Part shown: piece by piece, positions 8,340-53,777 of the stretch
Layout of the letters: the number at the start of each line of letters is the position of its first letter
How positions within the stretch are numbered: the first letter of the stretch is position 1
Assembly: GCF_963662735.1 (NCBI RefSeq)
Contig: NZ_OY759744.1
Coordinates: forward strand, 1,654,153 to 1,718,152
DNA from: an uncultured Methanoregula sp.
Lineage (GTDB): Archaea; Halobacteriota; Methanomicrobia; Methanomicrobiales; Methanospirillaceae
Direction: 5' to 3'
DNA: 64,000 bases
The notes under the pieces: model-generated
The model's input: the letters and a program-made list of their open reading frames with translations, nothing else
Told to the model about the DNA's origin: nothing
The model's database searches: none
Program-made: the position numbers and the translations under genes

Positions 8340-10469
8340 ATGAAAGGGCTGTCGTTCCGCCTGCCGGCCTGCAGCGTTCTTGTAAAAATCCTGCTGGTAT
8401 TTCTTGTCCTTTCGGTCCTGTCACTCCTTGTTTGCGGTCTTGTGGCGTATGTCACGATCAGCAATGTAGGGTTCTCCGCAGAAAAGGACAGCATCTCTCT
8501 TGGAAACAAGGCAGTCGATGCTGCTACCGGCGCCCTGAAGGATGCTGCTGAAAAAAACCTGGTCCAGCTGGCTTCCGATCAAGCGGATCTTACCAATGTC
8601 CTTTTTGAGGACACGATCACCGAGATGGAGATCCTTGCCACACAGGCCGAAACGGCAGGATACAATTCTCCGATCGCCCCCCTCACCCGACCCTACGCCC
8701 GGGAGAATCCCCCGGCTGATCCCGCGGACGCGACCGTCATCTTTCTTGCACCCGGTTCCCGTGCCACAAAAGATTCCGAGGAGTACCGTACCGTTGCCGG
8801 CATGAGCGATCTTCTCCGGGGCGTGTATTATGCCGATGGCAACCTCACGAGCGTTTACGTTGTTACTGATTCCGGGATTGTTGTGATGTATCCCTGGCGG
8901 AGTTTTGAAAACGGTACTATAGATCCCCGGAACCGTGACTGGTTTACCGGTGCAGAAAAGGCAGGGGATGTCTACTGGTCTGAACCGTACAGGGATTCTG
9001 CAACGAATGATATCGTGGTGACATCTTCAAAAGCAGTCCGGACCCGGTTTGGTACCTGGGTTGTCGGGAGCGATGTTACGGTCGGTGATATCAATTCGGC
9101 CTTCCTCAACCAGGCACTTGACGGACGGGGCTATGCAGTACTCATGGATAACAAGGGCACAATTATCAGCCGCCCCAATCTCTCCTCGGGAGAAACCATG
9201 GGTGCGGGAACGTACGTTCCGGAAAATGTATTCCGGGGCGATAATCCTGCCCTTGCAGTAATCAGCAGGAACATGACTGCTGGCAAAAAAGGCCTTGAAA
9301 CGACAAATTTCAACAATGTCGAGACATATGTTGCCTATGCCCCGGTCAGATCCCTGAACTGGAGTTTTGCTGTTTCCATGCCTGTAGATGAGATCACGGC
9401 ACCAATACAACCCACCCGGGATATGATCGTTGCGGCAACCATTCTCACTGGTGCCCGGATCGATGAGCAGACAGACCGCGTACGGGATATCTTTACCGTA
9501 CTCGTCCTGGCCCTCATCATTGTTGTCGCCATCCTTTCTGTTTACCTGGCACGGATCATAACCCGTCCCGTGGAAGCTCTTAAGAAAGGTACACTGGCTA
9601 TCGGCCATGGGGATCTGGATTACCGGGTCCGGCTGGAAACCCGCGACGAGTTCGAGGACCTTGCCCACTCATTCAACCAGATGGCCGGTGATCTCAGGAA
9701 AAATATTGACGAACTCCGGCGTACGACCGCAGAGAAAGAGCGGTATACAAAAGAGCTCGAGATTGCAAAGGAGATCCAGGAGAGTTTCCTTCCCGAGTTC
9801 ATCCCGGAGATCCCCGGTTACGATATCGCTGCCACAACCATCCCCGCCATGGAGATCGGGGGTGACCTGTATGATTTCCTCCCTCTCAAAGGCGGGCACT
9901 GGGGTTTCCTGATCGCCGATGTGTCCGGGAAGAGTGTGAGTGCTGCCCTGTATATGGCGCTGTCCCGGACACTCTTCCACGCGAGCGGAAGCGAACATCA
10001 GCACCCAAGCGCGACCGTCCAGTGGGTGAACCGGATGCTCTTTGATGACGGGCGATCGGGTATGTTCATCACGGTCTTTTACGGGGTGCTCGATCCGGAA
10101 AAAAAGACATTTGCCTATGTCAACGCGGGGCACAATCCTCCGATCCTCGTGAAGAAGAACGGGGAGAAGGCCCGCTACCTGGAAGGCCGGGATATCGCAC
10201 TGGGTGTGCTTCCGGAAGTGAAAGCCGCCTCGCATGCCCTTCTCCTGGAACCGGGCGATCTCCTCGTCTTGTATACGGACGGGATAACGGAGGCGTTCAA
10301 CGAGGTGAATGTGGATTTCAGTGAAGAACGCCTGGTTGCCTACCTGGAGAAGAACCGGTCTCTCCCGGCCCGGGAAATTCTCGCAGGTCTTTTAGCCGAG
10401 ATCCAGGAATTCCGGGGTAATGCCCCCCAGTCAGATGATATTACCCTGCTCGTGATCCGGGTGGAGTGA
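8340..10469 (+). CDS. Cache-HAMP-PP2C (SpoIIE/RsbU-type) protein phosphatase
   Basis: A 709-aa membrane-anchored serine phosphatase. The first transmembrane helix is at about 14-40. An extracellular double-Cache sensor spans about 45-370 ('DPRNRDWFTGA', 'GYAVLMDNKGTIISRP' and 'NWSFAVSMP' are typical Cache strands). A second helix is at about 382-404, followed by HAMP ('RIITRPVEALKKGTLAIG') to about 460. The phosphatase domain covers 470-709 and carries the metal-binding Asp motifs 'GGDLYDFLPL', 'IADVSGKSVSAAL' and 'SDDITLLVI'. Such enzymes dephosphorylate STAS anti-anti-sigma-type proteins. No STAS gene is adjacent, but two lie at 49491 and 51793. It probably converts an extracellular small-molecule signal into partner switching. 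A second phosphatase with the same catalytic domain is at 49980. Confidence 0.88.
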   Translation: MKGLSFRLPACSVLVKILLVFLVLSVLSLLVCGLVAYVTISNVGFSAEKDSISLGNKAVDAATGALKDAAEKNLVQLASDQADLTNVLFEDTITEMEILATQAETAGYNSPIAPLTRPYARENPPADPADATVIFLAPGSRATKDSEEYRTVAGMSDLLRGVYYADGNLTSVYVVTDSGIVVMYPWRSFENGTIDPRNRDWFTGAEKAGDVYWSEPYRDSATNDIVVTSSKAVRTRFGTWVVGSDVTVGDINSAFLNQALDGRGYAVLMDNKGTIISRPNLSSGETMGAGTYVPENVFRGDNPALAVISRNMTAGKKGLETTNFNNVETYVAYAPVRSLNWSFAVSMPVDEITAPIQPTRDMIVAATILTGARIDEQTDRVRDIFTVLVLALIIVVAILSVYLARIITRPVEALKKGTLAIGHGDLDYRVRLETRDEFEDLAHSFNQMAGDLRKNIDELRRTTAEKERYTKELEIAKEIQESFLPEFIPEIPGYDIAATTIPAMEIGGDLYDFLPLKGGHWGFLIADVSGKSVSAALYMALSRTLFHASGSEHQHPSATVQWVNRMLFDDGRSGMFITVFYGVLDPEKKTFAYVNAGHNPPILVKKNGEKARYLEGRDIALGVLPEVKAASHALLLEPGDLLVLYTDGITEAFNEVNVDFSEERLVAYLEKNRSLPAREILAGLLAEIQEFRGNAPQSDDITLLVIRVE

Positions 10470-42127: not shown

Positions 42128-42455
42128 GATTTGACGGTTTTAAGGAGATACGGCGCGATCATGCCGGATTTCCTGACTGATCCTTTCCATAAAAATTTTC
42201 CGTTTCTTTGATCGTTTCTTTGATCATTTGTATCCTGCATCCCGGCTGTCCCAGCATTCTCACCTTCCGTCTTCCCTGGAAAATCAGGGGCTACCGGCAG
42301 GAGTGTTACTCCCGCACGCTGCATTTGCTATTATTTTTGGAGAGGCACGGATAGCAATATCAGGAATCAAACCGATCGATTAAGCGGGAACGGGATGAAT
42401 ACTCTCCAGTAAGCTTCCCTCTGCTCAAGGATTGCTGATCTCCACGGATGTTACC
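42128..42455 (+). other. intergenic stretch
   Basis: About 330 bases before the HprK-like gene. It contains a short tandem repeat (TTTCTTTGATC twice near 42203-42224). A minus-strand frame at 42124-42324 has a low-complexity product and is not believed. No gene or clear promoter was seen. Confidence 0.35.
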
Positions 42456-43403
42456 ATGTCCTACACGATATCCCTGATTTCACCGGAAGAGAAGGAACAG
42501 CTGATTGATCACTACCAGCCCCGGGTCCGGTATGAAATCAAATCCGATATTTACGGGTGCTGCATCAAGCTGCTCTCGGACAACCACGCCCTGAAGGAAA
42601 CCTGGCAGGAGAATTTTTACGCAATGTCCGAGACCATCCGCTCCCACGGGCGTATGTACGTTTTCAGCGATCCGGCCTATCCTGAAAATTCCCTCCTGCT
42701 GGATCCTTATTCAAAAACGGCATTCCTGCTCAATTTCAGCTACTATGGCTGGATCAAATCCATAGCCCTTGGCCTTACCGGCGATATCCTCGAGGACGAA
42801 CACGGGATCTCTTCCATCCACGGGGCCTGTGTTGATATCGGGGGCCGGGGGGTCTGCCTTATCGGTACCTCCGGGGCAGGAAAAACCACCCAGACCTATG
42901 GTCTCCTCAATGATCCGCACAGCCGGGTCATTTCCGACGACTGGTTCTTCTCGCGGCTGTATGGTCCGGATATCCTTGCCTTTGGTTCCGAGAAGAATTT
43001 TTACATCCGCGAAGATTTAACCGCCATCTGGAAAGAATTTGGCGGGCTTGTCGAAAAGCACGAGTATGATGCCGACGGCAGAGCCGTGGCAAATCTCCGG
43101 TGGGTTGTCGGGAAAGGGCGGCAGTTGCCCTTTACCACGTTAAAAACGCTCGTCATCCTCAAGCGGGATCCCACTGACCCGGAAGCCAGCCGGCATCTCG
43201 AGCATGAGGATGCGCTCGCTCTTGTTACCGCAAACCGGTATTTCAACCCCCATCTCCTCGTGGATAACCCGAGGAAAGGGGCTATCCGGAAAAAATTTAT
43301 GGCCGACCTGCTGGAACGGACAACGGTCTATCTTGTCAATACCACGGGGACTCCGCTGGAAACGCAGGGCCTGATCCGGTCAATTGTGAAATTGAATGAA
43401 TAA
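42456..43403 (+). CDS. HprK-like P-loop kinase domain protein
   Basis: A 315-aa protein resembling the nucleotide-binding core of HPr kinase/PEP carboxykinase-type proteins. It has 'SIHGACVDIGGRGVCLIGTSGAGKTTQTYGLL' (Walker A near residues 137-145), 'VISDDWFF' (a Walker B-like acidic site) and a C-terminal 'ATANRYFNP' region. HPr kinases phosphorylate a Ser of HPr in bacteria. No PTS or HPr gene is present in this window, and archaea of this group normally lack PTS, so the target is unknown. I chose ATG at 42456; an in-frame TTG at 42432 is the longer alternative. The gene is followed by T-rich DNA and then the large kinase gene. Confidence 0.65.
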   Translation: MSYTISLISPEEKEQLIDHYQPRVRYEIKSDIYGCCIKLLSDNHALKETWQENFYAMSETIRSHGRMYVFSDPAYPENSLLLDPYSKTAFLLNFSYYGWIKSIALGLTGDILEDEHGISSIHGACVDIGGRGVCLIGTSGAGKTTQTYGLLNDPHSRVISDDWFFSRLYGPDILAFGSEKNFYIREDLTAIWKEFGGLVEKHEYDADGRAVANLRWVVGKGRQLPFTTLKTLVILKRDPTDPEASRHLEHEDALALVTANRYFNPHLLVDNPRKGAIRKKFMADLLERTTVYLVNTTGTPLETQGLIRSIVKLNE

Positions 43404-47764: not shown

Positions 47765-49504
47765 CTATTCCAGGTCCGTTGTTATAACAAACCTGCGGAG
47801 ACCGTTCTCCTCCGTGGAAGTAAGCCTGCCCCCCGCCCGTGCACAGAGCCGTTCCAGGAACCGCCAGGGTTTCTGTTTTTCCGGTGCTTCCCGTCGGGCA
47901 GTATCCCCGGATACCGTGACAACGGCTTCGTGTCCCGCCTGTTCCAGCGTGATGATTATCTGCCGGGAACCGGTGCCCACGAGTTCTTCGAGAATATAGG
48001 TCAGGACATCCGAGAACTGGTCGCGGTCCACGATTGCGGATAATGGCCGGTCACCGGCTTCAAGCGTGAGATCGATCTCCTCGAGGAGCGGGTGGGCCCC
48101 GACGCGGGCGATGAGCATCCGGGCAAAGGCGGCATCGTCATCGGCCGAATCAAGCATGTCCTCATCGGAACACGTGGATACCGAGAGCCCGGTCACGAGG
48201 GCTTTTACCTGGTGCGTGAGATCGCAAACGGCAAGATCGGCCGGGGGATGGAACCCGCGCAGTGTCGTGGTATAATCGGAGAGCAGCCTGCCAGCCCGCT
48301 GGACCAGGGTCGGGTCGATAAGCCGGGCGAGTTCGTCTTTTTTGAATGCCCGGTCCAGCCTGGCAATTACCTGGCCGGCCTTGAGGGCCAGGTGTATCGA
48401 GACGTTCTCATGCCGGTGGTGTTCTTCTGCAAAGTCCCTGAATGCCCCGAGAAGTTCGTCGATTGCATCGCCGTTGAACTCGGTATACATCCGCTCGGCG
48501 ATTTCAGGTTCTCCCAGTTCGTCCATGACATACGAGATGTAATAGAGGCGGCCGGCCATGATCGTGAAGATCTCGTTGACCTCGTCCATGCAGTCCTCGG
48601 CAAACGCGGCGGTCTCGACAGCCCGTTCCCTGTTCAGTTCGGCGATGTCCGCAAGAGCGAGTGCATCGTTCCTGACAGCGGAAAGTATTCTCGTTGCATC
48701 TCCCGCCGGGATCACCCTGCCGTGGCCGGGGCAGACCGTGCGGATCCCGCCTCCGGAAAGGATACCGTTGATCCCGGCAAGGGACCGGACAAGATCCTCC
48801 TGCGACCACCCGCACAATCCTGCAATCCCGGGATTTGCTGCAAACAGGATGTCGCCGATAAACAGGAGTTCGCCGATCCGGATACAGATGCTGTCCGGGC
48901 TGTGGCCCGGGGTATGGAAGACTTCGACCTGCGGCCCGGGCCCGAATGTTATCCGTTCGCGGACCAGATCCCCGCCCGGTTCTGTTCCCGCCCGGTCCTG
49001 CACCACCGTGACTTCGGCACCGTTTGAAAAGGAGAGGGCAACCGGGACGCCGCGAACTTCTGCCCGCTGCTGTGCCAGGAGGCGGAACCCGACCTTCATG
49101 GGCACCTGGGAGACCCCGAGCAGGTCAGCCTGCGTCAGTTTCCCGTCGCCGCGTTCGAGCGTGTCGGCCCCGCATTCCTGGACCGAGAAAACCGCACCCC
49201 CGGTGTACGCGAACGCGGGAAGGTGCTGGGCCCCGATGAAGTGATCGATATGGGCGTGGGTGAGAAAAACAAAGACCGGGCGATCGCACGCCAGGCGGCA
49301 GGCTTCAATAACCGCCATGAGCTGTTCAGCCTGGTCGGTGAGCCCGCCGGGATCGATGAGCAGGATGACGTCCGGGGTCTGGATGATATACGAATTGGAA
49401 GAGATGGTATCGATTTTCCGGATCAGCGGGAAGATGGAGGCCCCGAACGCCCCGGGAACCGGTTGCCATTCGAGGGAAATGAGCTGGTCGTTACCAGCCG
49501 GCAA
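47765..49504 (-). CDS. metallo-beta-lactamase fold hydrolase fused to degenerate kinase-like domain
   Basis: A 579-aa protein. The N-terminal half (about 5-290) is a metallo-beta-lactamase fold hydrolase: 'LLIDPGG', metal motif 'THAHIDHFIGAQ', 'VFHTPGHSPDSICI', 'LLFIGDILFA' and 'CPGHGRVI'. The middle is helical with charged heptads. The C-terminal part (about 430-570) resembles a Bergerat ATPase such as RsbW/histidine kinase ('DRDQFSDVLTYILEELVGTGSRQIIITLEQAGHEAVVTVSGDT'), but the Asn and Gly boxes are poor, so it may be a protein-binding pseudo-ATPase. It overlaps the STAS gene end by 14 nt when started at TTG 49504 (AGGGAGAGG before it); TTG at 49555 is also open. It belongs to the partner-switching cluster. 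Confidence 0.72.
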   Translation of the reverse strand: MPAGNDQLISLEWQPVPGAFGASIFPLIRKIDTISSNSYIIQTPDVILLIDPGGLTDQAEQLMAVIEACRLACDRPVFVFLTHAHIDHFIGAQHLPAFAYTGGAVFSVQECGADTLERGDGKLTQADLLGVSQVPMKVGFRLLAQQRAEVRGVPVALSFSNGAEVTVVQDRAGTEPGGDLVRERITFGPGPQVEVFHTPGHSPDSICIRIGELLFIGDILFAANPGIAGLCGWSQEDLVRSLAGINGILSGGGIRTVCPGHGRVIPAGDATRILSAVRNDALALADIAELNRERAVETAAFAEDCMDEVNEIFTIMAGRLYYISYVMDELGEPEIAERMYTEFNGDAIDELLGAFRDFAEEHHRHENVSIHLALKAGQVIARLDRAFKKDELARLIDPTLVQRAGRLLSDYTTTLRGFHPPADLAVCDLTHQVKALVTGLSVSTCSDEDMLDSADDDAAFARMLIARVGAHPLLEEIDLTLEAGDRPLSAIVDRDQFSDVLTYILEELVGTGSRQIIITLEQAGHEAVVTVSGDTARREAPEKQKPWRFLERLCARAGGRLTSTEENGLRRFVITTDLE

Positions 49505-49823
49505 GGGCCTCTCCCTCAGAAGGATAAATGGAAAAGATCGAGGTGAACCCGGCAAGCTTGAGTATCTTGTGGACTTCGGGGTTCAGGTTCGTAAGACCGA
49601 ACCGGTCATCGGGGTTCTTGAGTTTCTTTGCCGAGGCAAGAAGCACCCGGAGGCCCCCGCTGCTGATGTAATTGACTCCGGAAAAATTCAGCAGGATCTT
49701 CCGGTGCCCGAGATCGATCTCTTTGTTGATCGCCTGTTCGAGTGTTGGGGCCGTTGCTGTATCGACCCTCCCGGTAAGAGAGAGGACGGTTCCTTTTTCC
49801 TGTGTTGCTGATGAAATCTCCAT
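49491..49823 (-). CDS. STAS-domain anti-sigma-antagonist-like protein
   Basis: A 110-aa single STAS domain of the SpoIIAA/RsbV type: 'VLSLTGRVDTATAPTLEQAINKEI', 'ILLNFSGVNYISSGGLRVLLASAKKL' and 'VHKILKLAGFTSIFSIYPSEGEAL'. The Ser pair in 'ISSGG' is at the position phosphorylated by RsbW-type kinases. It starts with ATG at 49823 after GAGGGTG; GTG at 49829 is the alternative. It precedes the hydrolase/ATPase gene on the same strand and is divergent from the phosphatase/RsbW pair at 49980-51790. Together they form a complete switch: phosphatase, kinase and STAS target. Confidence 0.88.
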   Translation of the reverse strand: MEISSATQEKGTVLSLTGRVDTATAPTLEQAINKEIDLGHRKILLNFSGVNYISSGGLRVLLASAKKLKNPDDRFGLTNLNPEVHKILKLAGFTSIFSIYPSEGEALAGW

Positions 49824-49979
49824 GTGCACCCTCGTTGATAATTAAGACGGTATTCTTCTCACCAGTTTCGGCGTTTAAAAAAGATAATCCTATCCATGCC
49901 TCACTTTATTCTCCGCAGGAACCCCTGGGGCAGATTGGTGACTATTAAGTTACCTGCTGCCTAATGCGTTATTGACAAC

Positions 49980-51371
49980 ATGGCAGCCGATATCGTCTCA
50001 TCCTTGCTCCTCATGCTCCAGCTGATCTGTGTCATCGTTGTTGTGGCATACCTGCTTACCCGGAGCAGGATCTTCAATGATGTCCTTGACGGTCACCCTT
50101 CCCTGAAAATCCAGCTCATCCTGATCCTGGTTTTTGGTGCCCTGTCGGTCTACGGTACCGTAGCCGGCGTGGAGTTCATGGGCGCCATCATCAACGTGCG
50201 GGACCTCGGCCCCATGGTTGCCGGTCTCATCGGGGGCCCGTTCGTGGGACTCGGGGCCGGTCTCATCGGCGCTGCATACCGGCTGAGCCTCGGTGGCCTG
50301 ACGGTGTATTCCTGTTCGCTTGCAACGGTCCTCGCGGGTCTTTTCGGTGGCCTGATCTGGCTTGCCAACAAGCGGAAGTTTATCGGGATTACGGGAGCTG
50401 TCATCTTTGCGGCGATCATGGAAGGGATCCACATGCTCCTTGCCCTGATCATCTGCGGGCCTACCCAGCAGATCATAGCAATTATCCAGACCCTGGCAAT
50501 CCCGATGATCGTTTCCAATGCTGCGGGAATGTTCGTCTTTGCCTTTATCATCCAGAATCTCCAGAACGAGCGGAAGATGCAGGCCGAGCGAGATGTCCTG
50601 TTGCGGGAGATGGAGCGCAAGGACACCGAGCTTGCGATCGCTGCCGAGATCCAGCAGAGTTTCCTCCCGGATACCATCCGGCAGGTTGAAGGATTCGAGA
50701 TCGCCGCCAAGAGTGTCATGGCAAAGGAAGTGGGCGGGGACTTTTTCGATGTGATCCCCCTTGAAGTGATCCCGCTCTCCCGGAACCGGCTCGGCATCAT
50801 GATCGCGGATGTCTCCGGCAAAGGAATCCCGGCTGCCCTTTTTATGGCGTTATCACGGATTGTTGTCCGGGTCAATGCCACGTGGTATCCCGAACTTCCT
50901 GCAGAGGCGATCCGGGATGCCAATGCCATCATCACCGCGGATTCGCGGGCAGGAATGTTCGTCACGCTCTTTTACGGGATTCTCGATGGCGAGAAAAAGA
51001 GCCTGACGTACGTCAATGCAGGGCACAACCCGCCGCTCCTCTGCCATGCTGCCGATGGTACATTCGAAGAACTGCCGGCAACCGGCATTGCTATCGGGGC
51101 ATTGGACGATGCCGATTATACATCGGCGTCCGTCCCGCTCGTGCCGGGTGATGTCCTGGTATTGTATACCGACGGGATAACGGAAGCGGAGAATGTACGC
51201 CAGGACATGTTTGGCGAGGAGCGGCTCTACGAGATTATCCGCCAATCCCGCAACCTTTCGGCACCGGAGATCTCGTCACGGATTCTCGAAGAGGTCCGGA
51301 AGTTCTGCGGGGATCATCCCCAGTCGGACGACATCACCCTGATGGTCATAAAAGCTCTTGTGATCCCATGA
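49980..51371 (+). CDS. 5TM-LYT/PP2C (SpoIIE-type) phosphatase
   Basis: A 463-aa membrane phosphatase. The N-terminal 195 residues have five to six helices and the 5TMR-LYT pattern ('NVRDLGPMVAGLIGGPFVGLGAGLIGAAYRLSLGG'), a membrane sensor also found in LytS. The catalytic domain (about 230-463) has the metal-binding Asp motifs 'GGDFFDVIPL', 'IADVSGKGIPAALFMAL' and 'SDDITLMVI'. It would dephosphorylate a STAS protein, probably 49491 or the STAS domain at 51793. Its stop overlaps the start of the RsbW gene by 4 nt (ATGA), so kinase and phosphatase are made together. The STAS gene starts divergently 157 nt away. Confidence 0.88.
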   Translation: MAADIVSSLLLMLQLICVIVVVAYLLTRSRIFNDVLDGHPSLKIQLILILVFGALSVYGTVAGVEFMGAIINVRDLGPMVAGLIGGPFVGLGAGLIGAAYRLSLGGLTVYSCSLATVLAGLFGGLIWLANKRKFIGITGAVIFAAIMEGIHMLLALIICGPTQQIIAIIQTLAIPMIVSNAAGMFVFAFIIQNLQNERKMQAERDVLLREMERKDTELAIAAEIQQSFLPDTIRQVEGFEIAAKSVMAKEVGGDFFDVIPLEVIPLSRNRLGIMIADVSGKGIPAALFMALSRIVVRVNATWYPELPAEAIRDANAIITADSRAGMFVTLFYGILDGEKKSLTYVNAGHNPPLLCHAADGTFEELPATGIAIGALDDADYTSASVPLVPGDVLVLYTDGITEAENVRQDMFGEERLYEIIRQSRNLSAPEISSRILEEVRKFCGDHPQSDDITLMVIKALVIP

Positions 51372-51790
51372 GCAGTTCGTTTGTCCTCACCATAAGACCG
51401 GATCTCGACGAGATCGCCGGGATCTCAACCGCTCTTGAACAGGTGATGAAAACCCATTCCTTTGGCGAGGAGGAGATCCTCGACACGCAGCTTGCGGTGG
51501 AAGAAGCGATAACGAACGTGATCGTGCACGGGTACGAAGGCCGCGAAGGCGAGATCGTGATCGCCTGCCGGGCAACAAAAGGGATCGTGGAGATCCAGAT
51601 CGAGGATAAGGCACCGCCGTTCGATCCGCTCTCCCTTCCCGAGCCTGACCTGACCGCCAGTGTTGACGACCGGAAGATCGGGGGCCTGGGGATCTTCCTG
51701 ATCCGCCAAGTGATGGACGATATCGTTTACCGGCACGAGGACAATAAAAATATCCTGATCCTCGTCAAGCGCAGGCCGGCTGATTCCTGA
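51368..51790 (+). CDS. RsbW/SpoIIAB-type serine kinase (anti-sigma-factor-like)
   Basis: A 140-aa Bergerat-fold kinase of the RsbW/SpoIIAB family: N box 'AVEEAITNVIVHGYEG', G1 box 'EIQIEDKAPPFDP' and G2 box 'GGLGIFLIRQVMDDIVY'. Such kinases bind ATP, phosphorylate a Ser of a STAS partner and in bacteria hold a sigma factor. Archaea have no sigma factors, so the second partner here must be something else. Expression is coupled with the phosphatase gene (4-nt overlap). It converges on the STAS-unknown-domain gene (2-nt gap). Confidence 0.9.
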   Translation: MSSSFVLTIRPDLDEIAGISTALEQVMKTHSFGEEEILDTQLAVEEAITNVIVHGYEGREGEIVIACRATKGIVEIQIEDKAPPFDPLSLPEPDLTASVDDRKIGGLGIFLIRQVMDDIVYRHEDNKNILILVKRRPADS

Positions 51791-51792
51791 GA

Positions 51793-53100
51793 TCAGGGTT
51801 CCCGTGCAATCTCCTGGATATAGGAGACCCCGATCTTTGCCTTGCGGAGCCGTGTGGTATCGAGCAGGTGCCGCATGTCGACAAATTCCCCGTCAGTGAC
51901 GATCTTTTTTACCTGGGTGTTGAGGTCAAGGGACGGATCGTACGGGATATTCTGAAACACAACCCCGTGGTTGTGAAGGTACATCTGTTTTGCTGCCCCC
52001 TTGTTCAGGGGATTGGCGTAATACAGGGAGGCAAGGTCTTCTGCCTGGAAAGACGAGAGATCCCGCGAGAGATCGATCCCGATACCGAAGCTCACGAGCG
52101 TGTCGCCTTTGTACGGGGACGGTGTCTCGGATGCCATCCATTCGTGCACATGGGACGGTGCCATGATCGATGCCCCGTCCTTGGGGGCTGACGCGGCGAC
52201 AGGCGATTTCTTGAGACCGGAACTTGCAAGGCTGACAAGAACTCCCCAGATGGTTATGGCAACGATGCCACGGTAAGTCCGGACCCGCTCCTGTGCCGAT
52301 GAGAAAATGATCCGGTAAATATCCGCAACAGATACTCCCTTAGGATCCGTGGCATCCAGCGTGAAATACTCGTTGAAGGGGCCGTCGAGCGTGATATTAT
52401 AGCCGGTATAGACCGGCACGTCCCCCCCGGCATCCAGGGGCGTTAAGAAATCCGGGGTATTGTTGCCATCGGTCGGGAGCCAGACCATGGAGCCGTGGAG
52501 GGTGATCATCTCGCCGAGAAGCGGCATGGCATCTTTCTTATCGGCGCCGAGTGCGCCAAGGCCGAGGGAGTACATGACTTCCGAGAACTTCTTCTCCCGG
52601 ATATCGGCCTCGGCGATTCGTGCAAAAATTACCTTGTTGAGATCTCCCATGACCCGGAGCACCGGGGGCGAGGTCATCCACCCGGGCTCGATGGTGAGGT
52701 TCACGCCGTCCTCGACGATCTTCTTGTAAAAGATCTCGTTGAAGAGCGATGGGTTCTTCCGGTGTTTTGCCATGTCGGCAACTGCATCGTCGGTTGTCAG
52801 GAATATCTCGAACACCGTGTTGAAGCCGGCCATGTCCAGGACTTTTTTCGGGTATTCCCCGATCCCGGAGAGGGCGAACCTTCCGCTCCTGCGTTTCATC
52901 TCCCGCTTCAGGCTGTTAAAACTCCGGATCCCGCCACTGCTCAGGTATGGCGCACCGGTCAGGTCGAGGACCAGTTCCTTGTCGTCGTCATTCAACGCTT
53001 CCCGGGCCCACGTATCCATCTGCTGGGCGCCGAAGGCATCGAGCCTCCCGGTCACAAAAAAGATCAGAACGCCCTCTCTTCTCTCGCTCCTGGCTTCCAT
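51793..53100 (-). CDS. STAS domain fused to a large uncharacterised domain
   Basis: A 435-aa protein. Residues about 1-110 form a STAS domain: 'VLIFFVTGRLDAFGAQQMDTWAREAL', 'LVLDLTGAPYLSSGGIRSFNSLKREM' and 'VLDMAGFNTVFEIFLTTDDA', with Ser-Ser at the phosphorylation position. Residues about 120-435 form an alpha/beta domain I do not recognise, with no membrane helix, signal or metal motif beyond several Asp/His clusters ('PSHVHEWMASETPSP', 'LSRDLSSFQAEDLASLYYANP'). It could be the effector that the switch releases. It shares its 3' end with the RsbW gene. Confidence 0.8.
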   Translation of the reverse strand: MEARSERREGVLIFFVTGRLDAFGAQQMDTWAREALNDDDKELVLDLTGAPYLSSGGIRSFNSLKREMKRRSGRFALSGIGEYPKKVLDMAGFNTVFEIFLTTDDAVADMAKHRKNPSLFNEIFYKKIVEDGVNLTIEPGWMTSPPVLRVMGDLNKVIFARIAEADIREKKFSEVMYSLGLGALGADKKDAMPLLGEMITLHGSMVWLPTDGNNTPDFLTPLDAGGDVPVYTGYNITLDGPFNEYFTLDATDPKGVSVADIYRIIFSSAQERVRTYRGIVAITIWGVLVSLASSGLKKSPVAASAPKDGASIMAPSHVHEWMASETPSPYKGDTLVSFGIGIDLSRDLSSFQAEDLASLYYANPLNKGAAKQMYLHNHGVVFQNIPYDPSLDLNTQVKKIVTDGEFVDMRHLLDTTRLRKAKIGVSYIQEIAREP

Positions 53101-53261: not shown

Positions 53262-53777
53262 TCAGGAAATGGCGGGAACATAGGCAAGGACCGGGGACCC
53301 GGTTTTGTTGTACAATTTCAGTGCCTCACCCGATACCCGGAACTCGGTCGTGGCATTGAGGTTGTCCAGGTACGCGGTTTCCTGTTCCATCACGCCCTGC
53401 TCCGGGCAGTATTTCATGGAGGTTGCCGGAGGGGAGATCAGGATGGCATAATTGTTCGTGGTGTACGTTGCGCTGTAGATGTTGCAGCCGGTAAACCCGC
53501 TGAGCTGGCCGCCGGTGCCGAACCGGGCGGTGATGTTCCGGCTTCCCACCGGTTCCATTCCCCCGCTCGCATTGGCAATTGACTGGAGCTGCCAGCCGGT
53601 CTTTGTTATGGTTGTTCCGGCCGTTGCCTGGATTGCCGGGACATTTACGAATACGACCATGAAGGCGAGGCACCCGAGAAGCGCGATGGCAAAATAAAAA
53701 TAAAGCCCGAACTTCTGCGGCTCCCGGCACGGGTTTTCCCCGTCTTCGGGGATCTCCGGGTCGTAATCGTCGTCCAT
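53262..53777 (-). CDS. META/HslJ-domain membrane-anchored protein
   Basis: A 171-aa protein with an acidic N-terminus, one membrane helix (about 25-47, 'FYFAIALLGCLAFMVVFVNV') and an exported META domain. The domain shows 'TGWQLQSIANASGG', 'GSRNITARFGTGGQLSGFTGCNIYSATYTTNN' and 'TSMKYCPEQGVMEQETAYLDNL'. META domains occur in HslJ-like heat- and drug-stress proteins; their ligand is unclear. The orientation places the domain outside the cell. It is 160 nt upstream of the STAS-fusion gene on the same strand and may or may not be co-transcribed. Confidence 0.85.
   Translation of the reverse strand: MDDDYDPEIPEDGENPCREPQKFGLYFYFAIALLGCLAFMVVFVNVPAIQATAGTTITKTGWQLQSIANASGGMEPVGSRNITARFGTGGQLSGFTGCNIYSATYTTNNYAILISPPATSMKYCPEQGVMEQETAYLDNLNATTEFRVSGEALKLYNKTGSPVLAYVPAIS

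Follow-up and report, generated by a model that had tools for sequence, protein, structure and literature searches.

Here, we describe a partner-switching module of the Rsb/SpoIIA type encoded in a 64,000-nucleotide stretch of the genome of an uncultured Methanoregula species (hereafter the window; contig NZ_OY759744.1) and propose what this archaeal module may control. Between positions 47765 and 53100, Pfam and NCBIfam searches recovered, far above chance, an intact set of a STAS protein (STAS1), a 5TM-LYT/SpoIIE phosphatase, an RsbW-type kinase, a STAS fusion (STAS-X) and a metallo-beta-lactamase (MBL) fusion (MBLK), such that every part of the complete module claimed by the original prediction is present where it had been placed. 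The core of this module has been known since 2009, and its candidate outputs, STAS-X and MBLK, are new here. On balance, we lean towards a signal-gated phosphorylation switch whose clients would be enzyme-like proteins in place of a sigma factor.

In the switch that we propose from gene content and conserved residues, two sensor phosphatases, one with a 5TM-LYT sensor and one with a dCache-HAMP sensor (encoded at 8340), would dephosphorylate the STAS proteins, and a single RsbW-type kinase would phosphorylate them. One client would be STAS-X, in which the phosphorylation state would gate, in cis, the attached domain X, a predicted acetolactate decarboxylase (ALDC)/PTD012-fold domain that probably either is a metal enzyme or binds a small molecule. 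The other client would be STAS1, whose unphosphorylated form would switch between RsbW and the MBLK encoded next to it; MBLK would thereby replace the sigma factor as the third partner, in trans. As its output, the switch would control enzyme-like proteins rather than RNA polymerase directly.

The core of kinase, phosphatase and STAS protein is almost certainly intact, judging from domain matches and residues. The kinase (51368..51790, + strand) is of the RsbW/SpoIIAB type of GHKL serine kinases according to Pfam, NCBIfam and phmmer, matching HATPase_c_2 (E 1.3e-29), RsbW 6m36 (phmmer E 1.2e-8) and also SpoIIAB. The residues of its ATP motifs (E46, N50, D80, G105, G106 and G108) are found in 47/47 distinct proteins, and with them the N-box Glu/Asn, the G1 Asp and the G2 GGxG of GHKL serine kinases are all present. 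The membrane PPM phosphatase (49980..51371, + strand) carries a 5TM-5TMR_LYT domain at residues 31-193 (E 9.6e-42) and a SpoIIE domain at residues 268-458 (E 4.2e-53); the four metal-binding Asp of SpoIIE/RsbU-type PPM phosphatases (Asp 254, 277, 398 and 451) occur in all 39 distinct proteins, both phosphatase types included. STAS1 (49491..49829, - strand), a single STAS domain similar to SpoIIAA/RsbV (PF01740 E 2.3e-19; TIGR00377 80 bits against a cut-off of 53), has a candidate phospho-Ser, S57 in the motif YISSGG (112-residue numbering), and a Ser occupies the position of SpoIIAA S58 in 38/38 distinct STAS1 proteins, in the register of the phmmer alignment to SpoIIAA. The homolog sets behind these counts were gathered by similarity to the proteins of the window and cover orthologs and close relatives.

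The arrangement of the genes is compact. From the intergenic region at 49824..49979, which separates the divergently read genes of STAS1 and the phosphatase, STAS1 and MBLK lie leftward and the phosphatase and kinase rightward. The phosphatase and kinase genes overlap by 4 nucleotides (ATGA), and the STAS-X and kinase genes face each other with their 3' ends, 2 nucleotides apart. On inspection of the sequence, the start of STAS1 is more likely the ATG at 49823 and that of MBLK more likely the TTG at 49504, where five relatives have an ATG; with these starts, the two genes would overlap by about 14 nucleotides.

A second phosphatase, of dCache-HAMP-SpoIIE architecture (8340..10469, + strand; Pfam matches to dCache_1, HAMP and SpoIIE, the latter at E 5e-51), is likely a second input, as originally predicted. 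In support of this, a protein of 704-706 residues that is 38-39% identical to it is encoded at the module of L185 and L188, followed by MBLK, STAS1 and RsbW. These are two of four loci (L185-L188) that we take to be Methanospirillum-type; no phosphatase was seen in the stretch compared for L186 and L187. That the two phosphatases act on the same STAS proteins is not a given, since B. subtilis phosphatases of this family are described as preferring their own STAS protein by several hundred-fold (PMC11418112).

The genome of the window (G000; 2.82 Mb, one contig) holds two clear SpoIIE matches and one below cut-off. Six of its 13 HATPase_c_2 matches are over cut-off, and the kinase at 51368 alone is strong (103 bits); the runner-up, at 45 bits, resembles a PAS histidine kinase by eye. 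There are five STAS matches, and the other STAS loci point to no single output; by eye, one adjoins A-type ATPase genes. At a further one (L210:4262-5782; C1 ~2305261-2306781), STAS stands, by eye, ahead of PAS and histidine kinase domains, and this protein is possibly another client of the single strong RsbW.

STAS-X is likely to be a client of that kinase. Its STAS domain lies at 52765..53100 (- strand; PF01740 E 2.2e-17; TIGR00377 45 bits, below its cut-off). The candidate phospho-Ser of this domain, S55, is found in 103/105 rows; of the two others, one has Asn and one has a gap where its contig ends. In an AlphaFold2 model built from 44 sequences (pLDDT 88.7, pTM 0.69), the STAS half aligns to SpoIIAA (1thn_B) with a VIA Z of 19.4 and an rmsd of 1.5 over 112 residues. 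The approximately 310 residues beyond STAS, domain X (51793..52728, - strand), match no Pfam or NCBIfam family, and scans of 37 X members against both collections returned scattered chance-level families only. The model places this domain in the ALDC/PTD012 fold: residues from about 145 onward align to ALDC 6j92_B (VIA Z 18.9, rmsd 2.7, 206 residues), the Z values against ALDC structures range from 17.6 to 18.9, PTD012 (1xcr_A) follows at 15.2 (rmsd 4.1, 241 residues), and the best Foldseek match has an E of 3.1e-9. It was the predicted fold only, not sequence profiles, that pointed to ALDC. A sequence profile search of the PDB returned an amylase and two repeat proteins (E 5e-5 and 7e-5, neither with a single stretch that passed), and these were set aside as chance-like.

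ALDC has three zinc-binding His and an active-site Glu. Domain X resembles ALDC (PF03306) and PTD012 in predicted fold, and its GEM-motif Glu and its HxH followed by a third His may correspond to those of ALDC; unlike ALDC, it lies below Pfam detection, is fused to STAS and has a predicted helix between the HxH and the third His. Aligned by hhalign with 13 archaeal ALDCs, the YSLGLGALG..PLLGEMITLHG of X fell on GDFGIGTF..LDGEM..LDG (E 0.0017, probability 15%), which places E197 on the GEM-motif Glu; with fewer X rows, E was 0.0059. A relaxed alignment of larger sets (E 0.0044, probability 8%) reaches the end and pairs H411, in RHLLD, with the third His, in the GGH of ALDC. The genome of the window also encodes a separate, true ALDC (C1:1084949-1085605; PF03306, 285 bits), and ALDCs over the PF03306 cut-off occur in 139/392 sampled genomes of the phylum.

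Six residues of X (E197, H376, H378, D408, R410 and H411) show no variation across the 44 rows from which the model was built. Together with D211, D217 and N377 they are complete in 81/105 distinct proteins, and E197, H376, H378 and H411, whose order of one Glu and three His is ALDC-like, occur together in 91/105 distinct homologs, archaeal and bacterial, including 21/21 bacterial rows. Catalytic and metal sites typically show a conserved polar set of this kind. We give X an even chance of being a metal site or enzyme. Nine side-branch proteins depart from the set: L062-L065, which adjoin another membrane phosphatase, and L066-L070, which are five long X proteins. Each lacks at least three of H376, H378, D408, R410 and H411 and keeps the STAS Ser; H378 is lost in all nine, H411 is kept in four and E197 in three. 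This loss suggests that the set is functional rather than required by the fold. The search of the class used X alone as its query; the X proteins that were aligned all have the STAS Ser pair or a remnant of it, except one at a contig end.

Two of the long X proteins were scanned with Pfam (L066 and L069), and both have a TCAD9 kinase-like domain. Two other TCAD9 fusions, L117 and L122, sit in the bacterial branch of X, L122 with the six residues kept and L117 without H378. The fusion of STAS-X with TCAD9, an APH-like kinase domain (L066:7437-9845, L069:7195-9552, L117:2264-4693 and L122:2393-4867; Pfam E 1e-44 to 8e-49), represents a third architecture type of the STAS-X unit, in archaea.

Domain X also extends to bacteria. 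Among the best 80 of 106 loci from a genome scan, it is present in Chloroflexota, Verrucomicrobiota, Bacillota and other groups, for the most part in metagenome bins. In a tree built from 82 rows, one starred branch takes in the bacterial X rows together with three from archaea (Methanolliviera, Methanophagales and an unclassified euryarchaeote). Kinase and/or phosphatase genes accompany STAS-X in 7/25 bacterial loci. In L141, STAS-X directly precedes a 620-residue open reading frame that matches both phosphatase and kinase profiles; this phosphatase-kinase frame (L141:10897-12759) is on a contig assigned to Dethiobacter.

MBLK (47765..49555, - strand) combines an MBL domain at residues ~26-305 (Lactamase_B E 1e-15) with approximately 290 residues that match no Pfam family. 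Its MBL ligands are HxHxDH, as in hydrolase MBLs, in 37/37 distinct homologs. In the predicted structure (mb24012e0a286; pLDDT 80, pTM 0.60), the MBL half aligns to MBL enzymes with a VIA Z of about 18, a comparison that covers mainly residues 26-305 and barely the C-terminal half. That half is helical and GHKL-like; Foldseek aligns it to histidine kinases, which, given an rmsd of 11-19 A, we take as domain-level likeness only. The description of this protein as an MBL/ATPase-like fusion stands for the predicted fold, which is ATPase-like, and not for the ATP-binding motifs, which are absent by inspection.

We considered and rejected two specific identities for MBLK. Inspection of the alignments shows that the phospho-acceptor His and the ATP-binding N and G boxes of an active histidine kinase are absent, and HisKA and HATPase_c gave no match to the C-terminal half of the window's MBLK at E up to 1. 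An oxygen-sensing sensor of the ODP/flavodiiron type, in which the MBL diiron motif is HxExDH, does not fit the HxHxDH of all 37 homologs, and the one match to PF19583, in a single homolog, had an E of 0.019. In L184, a 1152-residue open reading frame (L184:2388-5846) has two 5TM-LYT stretches followed by an MBLK-type C-terminal half, and its N-terminal part looks transporter-like by eye.

The neighbourhood is conserved in relatives, as the original prediction required. We surveyed 232 genomes of the class: SpoIIE is found in 165, an RsbW protein in 141, MBLK (E up to 1e-40) in 116 and domain X in 101. Co-occurrence was based on the 132 genomes with a clear RsbW; nine were dropped, two of these with X. 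RsbW and MBLK are both present in 109 genomes, with RsbW only in 23, MBLK only in 7 and neither in 93; for RsbW and X the corresponding counts are 94, 38, 7 and 93. The seven X-only genomes (G054, G083, G133, G205, G209, G230 and G231) are all less than 90% complete, and 73/73 high-quality genomes with X have RsbW, unlinked cases included. Where the genes share a contig, RsbW and MBLK lie within 3 kb in 54 and within 20 kb in 74 of 81 genomes, and RsbW and X within 3 kb in 40 of 48. An adjacency scan of 60 loci and the window found 27 archaeal loci that hold both MBLK and STAS1; the two adjoin in 20, on the same strand in 13 (overlapping or abutting) and divergently in 7. Methanoregula-type loci share the layout of the window. 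In members of two other families, STAS1, phosphatase, kinase and STAS-X form an operon in that order, and MBLK is often close by; in many relatives STAS-X stands alone, distant from the other module genes.

To our knowledge, archaea have no sigma factors. In keeping with the prediction that the module must control something else, Sigma70_r2 and Sigma70_r3 had no match in the whole genome of the window, region 4 not having been searched. Among 14 control genomes, the region-2 model matched 10 and the region-3 model 13, three of them archaea, with 10 over cut-off for each. The module is like the RsbU/RsbV/RsbW and SpoIIE/SpoIIAA/SpoIIAB systems of B. subtilis in its kinase, STAS phospho-site and PPM residues, and differs from them in that no sigma factor was found in the genome, in its fused effector-like domains, and in its 5TM-LYT and dCache sensors. 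It may work like a sigma-controlling Rsb system without being one. Bacterial partner switches that do not control sigma factors include SiaABCD, HsbR/HsbA/HsbD and SypE/SypA, in which the STAS target is often an enzyme encoded nearby and the outputs are diguanylate cyclases or biofilm control; unlike these, the window has MBL and ALDC-like proteins as candidate outputs.

As a discovery, the core was anticipated. For Methanomicrobiales, Anderson et al. (2009) described the kinase, the phosphatase and the STAS protein, with target unknown (PMC2686161), and the need for a new archaeal function was also published then (PMC2686161, PMC3035220). The observation made for the window holds, and its main point had already been published. 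The 2009 set matches that of the window in order, in its STAS protein, RsbW/SpoIIAB-like kinase and serine phosphatase, in neighbouring locus numbers and in having no known target; the STAS-ALDC-like fusion, the MBL fusion and the second phosphatase are unmentioned in the parts of PMC2686161 available to us. That report places the core as absent outside the order Methanomicrobiales, a statement that may be dated, given SpoIIE-domain matches below E 1e-30 in 17 of 392 genomes sampled from the phylum, none of the 17 belonging to the order. REC-SpoIIE regulators are described in three Arc I archaea (PMC5847659). Among the matches listed, judged by title and the start of the abstract, nothing on archaeal partner switching appeared beyond the 2009 genome papers, and no paper was found that joins 'STAS domain' with 'acetolactate decarboxylase'.

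Several observations weigh against a switch with X and MBLK as its clients. Since 38 genomes with RsbW lack X and 23 lack MBLK, neither can be an obligatory output. MBLK is not adjacent to STAS1 in 7/27 loci, and 18/25 bacterial STAS-X loci have neither kinase nor phosphatase in the stretch compared, which is short in some. The Fisher p-values for co-occurrence (3e-33 and 1e-24) are inflated by relatedness, and we prefer the counts. Sequence support for a link between X and ALDC is weak, with hhalign probabilities of 6-15% across the three E values given above; none of 37 X members matched PF03306 at E up to 5 (HMMER filters drop most matches above 0.1), the HxH pairs of X and ALDC are two residues out of register in the relaxed alignment, and global hhalign aligned nothing useful.

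MBLK may instead be an input to the switch, as an adaptor that resembles a degenerate histidine kinase; its MBL domain would sense a small molecule, and RsbW or STAS1 would be modulated by its GHKL-like half. This is a tentative alternative. Because the same C-terminal half follows 5TM-LYT in L184, the MBL domain of MBLK is in a sensor-like position, and the Foldseek alignment of that half to histidine kinases also favours an input; set against this, the hydrolase-type ligands of every homolog suggest an active enzyme, and the overlap with the STAS1 gene would equally be expected of a STAS-controlled effector. MBLK is a conserved neighbour of the switch across the order and may serve as output or as input; we rate its being the third partner of STAS1 at a little under even. 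The domain of 51793 and the MBL fusion had been predicted to be the best output candidates; that holds up for X, a good candidate by its ALDC/PTD012 fold and metal-site-like residues, and is divided for MBLK.

We think it unlikely that transcription is controlled after all, via either a STAS-histidine kinase or an archaeal transcription factor that is not linked to the module, with X a mere ligand sensor on one STAS protein of several. The five STAS matches in the genome, one before PAS/histidine kinase domains by eye, would suit this idea, as would the X versions that lack the His set and still lie beside phosphatase genes; however, no recurring transcription factor was recognised among the neighbour clusters, most of which are unannotated, and the polar residues conserved in X are of the kind that catalytic or metal sites typically have. 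More improbable is that this is an ordinary SpoIIA-like module, as described in 2009 (PMC2686161, PMC3035220), with the fusion partners as incidental passengers, since X and MBLK co-occur with or adjoin the core across genera and some bacteria also have partner-switch genes next to STAS-X.

The role of the archaeal 'anti-sigma' proteins has been a question since 2009, and the fusion and neighbour partners provide two concrete, testable targets for them; one of these is a domain of ALDC fold that has no Pfam family and is common to archaea and bacteria. A bolder version of the switch that we favour is a phosphorelay that directly gates metabolism, with the RsbW/PPM cycle setting the phosphorylation of two STAS domains, one fused to a metal-dependent ALDC-like enzyme and the other the partner of an MBL hydrolase whose tail is a pseudo-histidine kinase. 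We advance this with reserve, as a possibility rather than an expectation; if true, it would define an inter-domain family, in archaea and bacteria, of STAS-controlled enzymes.

Other genes of the window and its genome deserve mention. Beside STAS-X, 53262-53777 encodes a META-domain protein (PF03724 E 5.9e-20), and META-domain-like proteins lie near STAS-X in 10 of the loci compared, some from one genome. An open reading frame at 42432-43403 resembles the C-terminal domain of HPr kinase and PEPCK (PF07475 E 3.8e-6, below its cut-off), and one like it is found near the module in 5/8 Methanoregula-type loci (L034-L041). Elsewhere in the genome, by eye and without family search, two KaiB-like frames stand next to a KaiC-like frame (L211:7229-9650), and genes for a vWA protein, a PP2C-like protein and a kinase-like protein form a trio (L212:3514-6542).

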